Shown here piece after piece: positions 15,097 to 47,778 of a DNA stretch of 64,000 bases. The stretch spans positions 1,123,001-1,187,000 of the forward strand of contig NC_087387.1 in assembly GCF_963675165.1 (NCBI RefSeq), read 5' to 3'. The position numbers were made by a program, and so were the translations under genes. Below the pieces are notes generated by a model, which saw nothing but the letters and a program-made list of their open reading frames with translations, did not search any database and had not been told where the DNA came from. This DNA is from Halichondria panicea (taxonomy: Eukaryota; Porifera; Demospongiae; Suberitida; Halichondriidae). Position 1 is the first letter of the stretch. Every line of letters starts with the position of its first letter.

Positions 15097-15810
15097 TCAA
15101 AAAATACTTCGGCCAAATACTGCAGAGTTGTCTTGCGTTGCTATGACTTCATCACTTTGCTGCCATGTGATGTCTTGTGATACAACGGTTTCTATCGTAA
15201 TATTTTCAGGGATGTCTTGCATTTCTCTGACTTCATCATCTGGGGGGCCGGGGAGGGGCTGCTCTTGTACCTTAAATGTAGCTTGCTGTGTAATGAACGT
15301 GGCTTCTGCTGCTAATGCTTGAAACATCATCACCTGTTTGTTGAGCTCACAAACTAGGGACTGGGCCGTGTAGAGGTCAAATTGTACATCTTCAGAGCTT
15401 GGTTGGTCATCAGTGGGTACCGGTACTTCATCTTGTTCATTGAGATTGTCACTTTTAGTGAGGTTATTGAGATCTGATTGATAGTGGAGTCTCTCAAGCA
15501 GTGGCTCTGCTCTCTCTGTAGTTGTATAATGGGTCCATGCAACTGATGCAGCTTCAGATACAGAGTGTGCTAGGTACTTGTCCATTTTCACTTGTAATAA
15601 GATGGTAAAGATCCTCATAACACAATCACAAAAGATCTTTCCCAAAATAGGCAGCAGGGAGGTAAAGATCATCAGTAGAACTAACTGCTTCTCAATCAAA
15701 AGTAAATTATTACATACACATAAAACACAGATTGCTACTGCCCACACACACAAATAATAACTAAAAGACAACAACAGATTCTTGACTGCACACATACACA
15801 AAACCATCAC
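15097..15810 (-). CDS. Conserved membrane-like ORF, copy 1 (237 aa, uncertain)
   Basis: I do not recognise this protein. The frame overlaps the 3' end of the TRIM gene by 50 bp in another frame and continues downstream. It begins with two strongly hydrophobic segments (about residues 1-70) and then a polar, acidic part starting [17 protein letters not shown] with a [14 protein letters not shown] helix-like stretch. The polar part is present in all five complete units. It could be a real small gene starting at the hydrophobic Met or at MDKYL, or simply conserved TRIM 3'-UTR. Its last residues differ from copy to copy because each unit has a different downstream joint. Confidence 0.35.
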   Translation of the reverse strand: MMVLCMCAVKNLLLSFSYYLCVWAVAICVLCVCNNLLLIEKQLVLLMIFTSLLPILGKIFCDCVMRIFTILLQVKMDKYLAHSVSEAASVAWTHYTTTERAEPLLERLHYQSDLNNLTKSDNLNEQDEVPVPTDDQPSSEDVQFDLYTAQSLVCELNKQVMMFQALAAEATFITQQATFKVQEQPLPGPPDDEVREMQDIPENITIETVVSQDITWQQSDEVIATQDNSAVFGRSIF

Positions 15811-45576: not shown

Positions 45577-47778
45577 CTAAAATATAACAACAGATTCATG
45601 ACTGTGCACATAAACAAAACCATCACTGTCCACAGCTACTCCATAAAGATAAAGATTAGTGATATGAGCATTACCAAATGATGTGACAAACTGACCGTCT
45701 TTAGTGAACACTGACACACGCTTGTTAGAATCAGCAACATAAACAAAACCAGTGACACACACACCACAAGGGGAAGACAGTTCTCCTTGTCCATTTCCTT
45801 TCTTTCCAATCGAGCGAATAAACCGACCATCCATAGTGAGCACTTGAACACGATGATTATAACAGTCAGTGACATACATCATTTGTTCATTGTCCACAGC
45901 AACATCCTCTGGTCCGTTAAAATGCTCATTACCAGTTCCGTATGAACCAATCTGCTTGACTGGCTCCAGCTCTGTCGTCAACACTTGGACTCTGTGATTA
46001 CTCCGATCGCACACAAACACTTGATCACCAGCGACTGCTATCCCTCGAGGGCAGTTGAGTTCCTTTGGACCACTTCCAATCGTCCCAAACCTCTTCAGCA
46101 GATCTCCTCTTTTGTTGAACTTGTACACACAGTGTTTGCTCCAGTCAGAGACATAGATGTTGTCCTCCTTGTCTACTGCCACGCCAGAGATACCGCCAAA
46201 CCCGTGCTTTGATTTGCTGATGCTTCGAATTTGTTTTCCTTTCTTGTCAAACACCAAAACATCACCCTCAAAGTCAGTTACAATCAGTTCTTCTGACGAA
46301 TTGAATGCCATATATCGAGGGATGTTGATTCCTCTCATCACCCTCACAGGTTTGTCCAGCTTGGTGGGGGGTATTTTGACGAACACAGAGAAGGGGCTTC
46401 CTGGGATGGGCTGGTCGTCTACTGAGATCAGGAGGTGGTGTCGACCACGTATCCTAGGGGTGTACTCAACGCTGTACACTCCACCCCTCACAGGCACTGC
46501 TTGTAGCTGTTGAGAGGATTGATCAACTAGCGATTTTAGAGCCACTTGTATTGTAGGATGCTTTAATTGTGTATTACATTCCACAAGAATCGAAAAATTG
46601 TTAGGTTTATCGATTTCAGCAGTTCTAGCTCCATCTCCTTCCACAGTGCACTTTGCTGGATCCACTTTACCATCATACACTCTCACATTGTTCTCACACA
46701 ACTTCTTGAGATCCTCACAAACAAACACTTCGACTCCAAAATCATCTTTCTCCACTGGATCAGGATTGGCTGCTTCCTTCCCTCGCTTCAACACCTCGGC
46801 ATCGATTCGACTCACCACCTGCTCTTGCATCGTAATCAGTTCTTCATCACTTGCATTCTCCAGTGTACGCTCTACAAAGTCAATCAAACTCTGAGCAGTG
46901 CCCAGGGACAGGTCCAGACCCTTCTCTTGAACTGTCAGCTTCTCCATCTTTGAATCAGCCAAAGCAGAAGATTCTCGTAAAACATGGACCTTGCATCGAT
47001 CGAGAATATCGTGTAGCTCCTGGAACTTGGCATTCACTTGTCTCTCTGTCAGTTCTTTCTGGGCCTGGATCTTCTGTTTAGTTCCTTTCACTTGATTCAC
47101 AGCGGTGCTCAGATCAGGCAGTAGGTTCTTGAGTGGGGAGAGGTGCTCCGTCAGCTTTTTGCGAGTTGCGGGGGCGGCTTTCTTTACAAATTCGTAATTG
47201 TGTCCAGCGTGTTCAATAACGATACAGTCTCGACAGATAAGCTTGTTGCAATCGAAACAGAAAATCTTTTTTGGCTCTTCGTGATCTTTGCATTTTGGGG
47301 GTGGTGGGTTTTCGAATGTTAGTTCTTTGACTCCGCCTTGTTTGAGCTCGTCCAGAGTGGAGACGATATGTGTAGCAAACACTTTCATACGTTGATGAGG
47401 TCTTACACAATCCTCACAGATGAAATTGACACACTGTCGGCAGAATGCAGTGGCCTTTCCCCCAGAGCACATTTCACAAGTGGTCTCCAACTTGCCATGG
47501 GCTTTCTCCATCCTCGAGTGGAGTGCTTTCATCCGGTTGATAAAGAACGCAGTGGTCAGTCTGTCTGGGTTGTTGTCTGGCAATAGAGTGGGCTCACGAC
47601 AGTCGGGGCAGGGGAACGGCTGGTTGGGTCGGTAGCGACTGGAGAGTGTGAGGATGCATTGCTTGCAGTAGTAGTGACAACAAGGGAGCAGCTTTGGCTC
47701 CTGGTAGCGGTCATGACAGATGCCACAGGTCACTTCTTGCTCGAGATCAGCAACAACTGGATCAGGTCCTTCGGCCAT
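45577..47778 (-). CDS. TRIM-NHL protein, copy 5 (733 aa)
   Basis: Full domain set in one exon. B-box and class B filamin loop match copy 2 almost exactly, while the NHL part has its own variable sites: FEGD (blade 1), WS (blade 2), RS (blade 3), CY (blade 4), a one-residue-shorter ADSN (blade 5) and a two-residue-longer NLYLYG with HSHES (blade 6). GINIPRY replaces GINNPRY before blade 1. The coding sequence is intact, but its 5'-UTR intron is stretched to about 5.1 kb by a transposon. Confidence 0.92.
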   Translation of the reverse strand: MAEGPDPVVADLEQEVTCGICHDRYQEPKLLPCCHYYCKQCILTLSSRYRPNQPFPCPDCREPTLLPDNNPDRLTTAFFINRMKALHSRMEKAHGKLETTCEMCSGGKATAFCRQCVNFICEDCVRPHQRMKVFATHIVSTLDELKQGGVKELTFENPPPPKCKDHEEPKKIFCFDCNKLICRDCIVIEHAGHNYEFVKKAAPATRKKLTEHLSPLKNLLPDLSTAVNQVKGTKQKIQAQKELTERQVNAKFQELHDILDRCKVHVLRESSALADSKMEKLTVQEKGLDLSLGTAQSLIDFVERTLENASDEELITMQEQVVSRIDAEVLKRGKEAANPDPVEKDDFGVEVFVCEDLKKLCENNVRVYDGKVDPAKCTVEGDGARTAEIDKPNNFSILVECNTQLKHPTIQVALKSLVDQSSQQLQAVPVRGGVYSVEYTPRIRGRHHLLISVDDQPIPGSPFSVFVKIPPTKLDKPVRVMRGINIPRYMAFNSSEELIVTDFEGDVLVFDKKGKQIRSISKSKHGFGGISGVAVDKEDNIYVSDWSKHCVYKFNKRGDLLKRFGTIGSGPKELNCPRGIAVAGDQVFVCDRSNHRVQVLTTELEPVKQIGSYGTGNEHFNGPEDVAVDNEQMMYVTDCYNHRVQVLTMDGRFIRSIGKKGNGQGELSSPCGVCVTGFVYVADSNKRVSVFTKDGQFVTSFGNAHITNLYLYGVAVDSDGFVYVHSHESVVIF

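Follow-up and report, generated by a model that had tools for sequence, protein, structure and literature searches.

The TRIM-NHL genes of the locus

The stretch of DNA analyzed here, referred to as the window, comprises 64,000 nucleotides of the sponge Halichondria panicea (C11:1123001-1187000, in a genome of 131 Mb and 39 contigs) and contains five tandem genes for proteins of the TRIM-NHL type. All five are open reading frames (ORFs) without interruption on the minus strand that encode proteins of 721-733 amino acids. Gene 1 (15761..17926, 721 aa) was delimited by its ORF, Pfam matches and a match within the same genome (L009) and encodes a RING domain, two B-boxes, a coiled coil, a filamin domain and an NHL domain. 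The same architecture was found by ORF, Pfam and alignment for gene 2 (22740..24938, 732 aa), gene 3 (29691..31886, 731 aa), gene 4 (36896..39061, 721 aa) and gene 5 (45577..47778, 733 aa), and the span of 15761..47778 given by the first-pass annotation correctly extends from gene 1 to gene 5. RING (PF00097), B-box (PF00643, two stretches per protein), filamin (PF00630) and NHL (PF01436) scored above the Pfam cut-offs in all five proteins, whereas the coiled coil is based solely on long helices at residues 202-335 in a structural model of gene 1, which were predicted with low confidence. Together with the RING and the B-boxes, the C-terminal six-bladed NHL propeller agrees with the features of TRIM-NHL proteins (class VII or subfamily C of the TRIM family), and no PRY/SPRY (B30.2) family was detected in a Pfam scan of the five window proteins up to an E value of 0.1.

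The array is far larger than the five genes described by the first-pass annotation. Since the genome searches scored the best candidates only, all copy counts given here are lower bounds. With gene 1 as query, at least 65 matches were found on C11. Seven of the 53 unique C11 ORFs were dropped, namely L055, whose end is changed, L056-L059, which carry an in-frame TAG, L068 from another subfamily and one transposon-like ORF, and the partial copies L060-L062 stood outside the count from the start. The 46 distinct intact ORFs that were retained have pairwise amino-acid identities of 0.785-0.997 (mean 0.873), and the eight C3HC4 positions of the RING domain, presumably the zinc ligands according to the RING consensus, are invariant in all 46. 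A second subfamily (II) comprises at least 24 near-full matches with 79-100% identity to the query, 23 of them on C3 and one on C8, and 23 of these matches are without a stop. Subfamily III has at least 27 matches at C3:5.88-6.31 Mb with 37-39% identity, 25 of them without a stop. The analyses of these two subfamilies covered the NHL regions of 20 of the 24 copies and eight of the 27 copies, respectively.

One face of the propeller is diversified by selection

The differences between genes 1-5 that had been read from the sequence were recovered exactly in the alignment: residues 582-583 are QD, QK, QK, QC and RS, residues 629-630 are CC, HS, YY, CY and CY, residues 612-614 are HPQ, YPK, YPQ, QPE and GPE, residues 658-661 are SCPY, CCPY, FYLR, FYPS and SSPC, and residues 493-496 are YDGD, FEGD, WNCG, STGD and FEGD. 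When NHL sites with an entropy above 1.3 bits across the 46 copies were defined as hypervariable, 29 residues of gene 1 fell into this class (476, 478, 493, 494, 518, 519, 521, 536, 537, 539, 557, 559, 566, 582, 583, 603, 612, 629, 630, 659, 661, 672, 674, 675, 677, 699, 700, 715 and 716); two insertion columns after residue 699, in which gene 1 has no residue, also passed the threshold and were not counted. Strands and loops were assigned from an AlphaFold model of gene 1 built with 43 sequences, in which the ten-residue blocks of the NHL domain had predicted local distance difference test (pLDDT) scores of 73-98, with 20 of the 26 blocks above 90. In propellers of this topology, the loops between strands D and A and between strands B and C lie on one face (here the top), and the A-B and C-D loops lie on the opposite face; the D-A loop precedes strand A, and the B-C loop separates the conserved D and N of each blade motif. 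The DA and BC loops, with 83 residues, contain 25 of the 29 hypervariable residues, in contrast to none among the 45 residues of the AB and CD loops (Fisher p 4e-6), and the remaining four are located in strands, one step from their DA/BC end. The difference in entropy between top and bottom loops exceeded that of every circular shift of the profile (0/252 reached it). The same strand offsets recur between blades, with hypervariable residues three positions before strand C in all six blades, four positions before strand C in five and one position before strand A in five. In this way, both the proposed variation at equivalent spots of the blades and its restriction to one face, previously suggested from five genes, hold across the 46 copies.

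Selection was assessed by pairwise counts of nonsynonymous and synonymous diversity (piN/piS), which need no tree and are therefore not misled by gene conversion. Among the 46 copies, piN/piS was 1.52 in the top loops (bootstrap confidence interval, CI, 1.12-2.13), compared with 0.40 in the bottom loops, 0.54 in the strands, 0.54 in the filamin domain and 0.28 in the region from the RING to the coiled coil (RING-CC), and the anticipated excess of replacement changes at the variable sites was thereby borne out. In pairs with nearly identical RING-CC regions at silent sites (36 of 1035 pairs), the top-loop ratio was 2.19. Our own tree-based site-mixture test, which allowed beta to exceed alpha and was fitted segment by segment, gave twice the log-likelihood gain (2dlnL) as 43.6, 26.4 and 84.7 for the three NHL segments and only 1.5 for filamin. 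At P>0.9 it flagged 47 sites in the NHL domain, 32 of them located in the DA/BC loops. This test is ranked below the pairwise tests because it presupposes a tree and becomes anticonservative under recombination. A few variable sites were also seen outside the NHL domain, at residues 118, 123 and 126 in the B-boxes and residue 50 in the RING domain; residues 50 and 123 passed P>0.9 in the site mixture.

The silent rate was judged from third codon positions. In seven of the 29 hypervariable codons the third base is T or C in every copy, and the diversity at their first, second and third bases was 0.51, 0.56 and 0.058, i.e., about ten-fold higher at the first two bases than at the third. Third-base diversity was likewise 0.058 at the 247 codons for conserved residues in the whole gene, and this ordinary silent rate argues strongly against a mutation hotspot. 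Codon 659, for example, encodes ten different amino acids with a C as third base in all 46 copies. Noncoding sequence served as a neutral yardstick: from -1700 to -100, units 1-4 of the window differ by 1.1-3.2% per 200-base bin, whereas top-loop replacement sites differ by 17%. Further upstream, from -3300 to -1700, the difference was 2-7%, and it was larger beyond that. Together, these analyses show that selection for amino-acid change has diversified the loops of one NHL face, and that purifying selection has preserved the RING domain, the B-boxes, the coiled-coil stretch and the propeller framework.

The face bias recurs in both other subfamilies, and the excess over 1 recurs in subfamily II. 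In subfamily II, 24 hypervariable sites are located in top loops, none in bottom loops and five in strands, and piN/piS was 2.16 in the top loops (CI 1.46-3.50) and 0.59 in the bottom loops, the latter with a wide CI of 0.25-1.80. Nine pyrimidine-ending hypervariable codons of this subfamily had diversities of 0.60, 0.51 and 0.000 at the three bases, and third-base diversity at 96 conserved codons was 0.035. The hypervariable sites of subfamily III comprise 14 in top loops, none in bottom loops and five in strands. In six other contig groups, which represent about four sequence lineages (the groups on contigs 3975088, 577002 and 691469 form one lineage, 85-94% alike), top-loop entropy likewise exceeded bottom-loop entropy at the protein level (p 4e-4 to 9e-10). 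For 17 proteins of these groups, the best match to the fetched loci of the H. panicea genome was 49-71%, indicating that they are not the fetched copies, and judging from this divergence the groups probably belong to other species. The group on contigs 332846 and 1234121 contains proteins identical to C11 copies and was therefore assigned to the same species and not counted as independent.

Duplicated units, exchange between copies and neighboring sequences

The propeller that bears the hypervariable face occupies 15764..16531 in gene 1 (minus strand, residues 466-721), as delimited by the entropy in the 46 copies and the model. The corresponding propellers of genes 2-5, at 22743..23513, 29694..30464, 36899..37672 and 45580..46353 (all minus strand), were placed by alignment to gene 1 with coordinates reckoned by hand. 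Gene 1 is part of a duplicated unit of roughly 7 kb, whose upstream portion (18445..20357, strand unassigned) was recognized from direct repeats. Copies of this upstream repeat are also present upstream of genes 2-5, plus one at 9260-11196, and many of the 300-base blocks are 96-99% identical, while some are as low as 72%. The copy belonging to gene 5 is displaced to about 53.2-56 kb, and the 1012-aa ORF at 48620-51658, which has a weak Tudor-like match below the cut-off, probably belongs to a mobile insertion that caused the displacement. The copies L056-L059 (C11:949296, 1038658, 1106359 and 1197289), all with a common in-frame TAG that cuts off the end of the last blade, each have a copy of one similar type at a distance of about 4 kb, so that segments exceeding a single gene have probably been duplicated.

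In none of 500 permutations was the pairwise homoplasy index (PHI) statistic as low as observed, either for the whole gene or for the RING-CC, filamin and NHL regions separately (p 0.002 each), which supports exchange between copies, also inside the NHL domain. A feature not noticed in the first-pass annotation is that filamin also varies in its N-terminal half, where units 1-4 differ by 21% (positions +1100 to +1300 of each gene in the window) with a high dS. The pooled omega (dN/dS) of filamin was 0.53 in the five window copies. As dS is high along with dN, old exchanged modules are a better explanation than positive selection, and the N-terminal half perhaps represents a few old module classes that have been exchanged between copies. 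Filamin as a second diversifying surface was set aside because dS is inflated together with dN and the gain in the site mixture was negligible.

Other ORFs were noted in the window. Those at 15097-15807 and 28985-29737 lie in the conserved 3' flank, where they overlap gene 1 and gene 3, respectively, at the 3' end, and a Pfam scan of the former gave no match. The ORF at 1445-2047 has a weak B-box match below the cut-off, and no Pfam match at an E value of 0.01 was obtained for the ORFs at 4620-5258 and 61436-62230.

A candidate recognition repertoire and its relation to known systems

We consider it probable, though by no means certain, that the window belongs to a tandem germline-encoded, finTRIM-like TRIM-NHL repertoire of H. 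panicea, in which NHL acts as recognition domain and one of its faces has been diversified. From knowledge of the family, the diversified face is likely to be the ligand face because it carries the positions that correspond to the RNA-contact residues of LIN-41. For LIN-41, 14 RNA contacts have been named, and its contact residues are mostly identical between species (PMC5908797). In a MAFFT alignment, which was shifted by one blade relative to the structural ranges and left three of the 14 contacts unmapped, 10 of the 11 mapped contacts were hypervariable. A blade-by-blade alignment mapped 12 of the 14, eight of them hypervariable; it failed at blade 1, where contacts 563 and 564 remained unmapped and 581 and 582 were misaligned onto conserved residues, and other gap settings left the result unchanged. 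Recombination between copies shuffles the diversified loops. In such a repertoire, each copy might bind a different ligand via its propeller face, the coiled coil may dimerize and thus enable multivalent binding, and the RING domain could attach ubiquitin to the bound target or set off a response. Intracellular microbes or viruses would be the most likely selective agent, by analogy with finTRIM (PMC2657112, PMC3137616) and with the B30.2 domain of TRIM5alpha, for which such agents have been proposed.

Several observations weigh against this interpretation or narrow it. The loop classes come from the predicted model of one copy. For single loop classes of the C11 family, the bootstrap CI of piN/piS includes 1 (BC 0.84-2.15, DA 0.97-2.49), so that the excess is significant only for the face as a whole, and in subfamily III the ratio of the top loops was below 1 (0.84, vs 0.20 in the bottom loops). 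The pooled omega of the whole NHL domain in the five window copies was 1.00 and thus not above 1. The site mixture also gained 2dlnL 12.1 in RING-CC, and 13 of the 47 flagged NHL sites are located in strands and two in opposite-face (CD) loops, which makes this test less clean. The flat third base is restricted to pyrimidine-ending hypervariable codons: over all 30 hypervariable columns, third-base diversity was 0.28 compared with 0.07 in the rest of the NHL domain, and in subfamily II the diversities at all 31 hypervariable columns were 0.53, 0.46 and 0.23 at bases 1, 2 and 3 (third base 0.23 vs 0.06). Many third-base changes at these other codons replace the residue, and the competing explanations are therefore not separated by them. 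The LIN-41 contacts 660 and 707 fall on less variable positions. Finally, the net charge at the 29 sites ranges from -3 to +4 across copies, which implies neither a single ligand class nor conserved RNA binding.

After recent duplication, propeller loops could also become variable without selection for change, if constraint were relaxed or a hotspot of mutation or conversion lay there. Loops generally tolerate change, the copies recombine and third-base diversity is elevated over the full set of hypervariable columns. However, at pyrimidine-ending hypervariable codons the third base is no more diverse than at conserved codons, with bases 1 and 2 about ten-fold above it, the loops of the opposite face are conserved, and piN/piS of the face loops is above 1 in two subfamilies. 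We therefore rejected this explanation, mainly on the third-base test and the conserved bottom loops, and regard it as very improbable. That the array results from an assembly artefact or consists of pseudogenes is the least credible possibility: four copies do share the in-frame TAG and some fragments exist, but the 46 distinct intact full-length ORFs with their invariant RING positions led us to reject a pseudogene array. In addition, of 12 proteins compared on a separate contig record (332,846 bases), 11 match C11 copies exactly, although this record is possibly an earlier version of the same assembly.

Other alternatives accept the diversification and differ in the ligand. Each NHL face might read a different RNA, e.g., of a transposon or virus, which the protein would then repress. 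Such an RNA-directed repertoire would be an RNA-level counterpart of the KRAB zinc-finger arrays with their diversified base-contact residues. We consider this unlikely, since the face is not uniformly basic (in addition to the charge range given above, the net charge is 0 to +8 when the top loops are taken as a whole), the enriched residues S, Y, N, C, H and W suit protein binding equally well, and the RNA target remains hypothetical. A role in self/non-self or individual-specific recognition, such as allorecognition or symbiont control, instead of pathogen defense would fit the allorecognition known from sponges and the large, polymorphic-looking arrays. On a contig of 1,234,121 bases, two of 10 compared proteins are identical to C11 copies and eight have 89.5-96.9% identity to the nearest copy, which may reflect haplotype differences, and this contig is possibly a second haplotype with other gene content. 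The eight non-identical proteins are P0013, P0019, P0020, P0021, P0028, P0029, P0042 and P0058. However, known TRIM members are intracellular, and the contig comparison drew on representative sequences from a database with clustering at 90% identity, so that this function appears quite improbable.

The favored reading of a finTRIM-like repertoire can be extended to the proposition that the sponge NHL domain is a germline-diversified recognition domain, present in each genome in close to a hundred TRIM E3-type proteins or more, with RNA as ligand in its boldest form. It would encompass three subfamilies, each with about 2-7 variable positions in every blade, almost all of them located on a single ring-shaped face under selection for change. 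We put this forward tentatively and as an outside chance; if true, the boldest form would mean that the repertoire reads RNA, is directed at transposons or viruses and has its diversity at the RNA-contact residues. If the finTRIM-like repertoire is confirmed, the diversified propeller would be a new recognition scaffold for invertebrate immunity and would mean that a LIN-41-type ligand face can be retuned by a few residues per blade. It would also offer a naturally tested binding scaffold, comparable to the designed Pizza propellers, which match this NHL propeller. Because the diversification signal is strong, a search for ligands is directly practicable.

Among TRIM-NHL proteins, Drosophila Thin/Abba, Brat and Mei-P26 and vertebrate TRIM2 and TRIM3 are encoded by few genes and have developmental or muscle roles, and we met no tandem diversifying array of any of them in searches that were not aimed at each. 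The combination of filamin and NHL domains in all five window proteins resembles LIN-41/TRIM71. In contrast to the contacts of LIN-41, most of which are identical between species (PMC5908797), the equivalent positions of the sponge copies are mostly hypervariable, and we therefore rejected orthology to LIN-41 in the sense of RNA contacts. The SRCR and NLR expansions of sponges and zebrafish are also large lineage-specific recognition families (PMC10855680, PMC4852459), but their domains are unrelated to TRIM-NHL. In the accessible sections of a study on lipopolysaccharide (LPS) treatment of H. panicea, individual-specific receptor repertoires and regulation of ubiquitination were reported, and NHL is among the domains in the legend of the receptor figure, while TRIM genes are not named there (PMC8242945). 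No description of a diversifying NHL repertoire was recognized among the titles and abstract beginnings listed in searches of an open-licence library.

The closest functional parallel is provided by the finTRIM (ftr), btr and trim35/hltr families of teleosts, which likewise comprise many related TRIM genes that recombine and whose C-terminal recognition domain has hypervariable loops shaped by positive selection (PMC2657112, PMC3137616). The teleost families use B30.2 (PRY-SPRY) for recognition, whereas the sponge family has filamin and a six-bladed NHL propeller in uninterrupted ORFs; membership in finTRIM was rejected because B30.2 is lacking. Positive selection in finTRIM was also reported for the RING and B-box domains (PMC2657112), whereas RING-CC of the sponge proteins is mostly conserved. 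Diversifying TRIM repertoires have been described for vertebrate B30.2, and here an unrelated fold in a sponge shows diversification on one face of a propeller. With its many paralogues and selected hypervariable sites, the sponge family works like a diversifying family of the finTRIM type without being a member of it.

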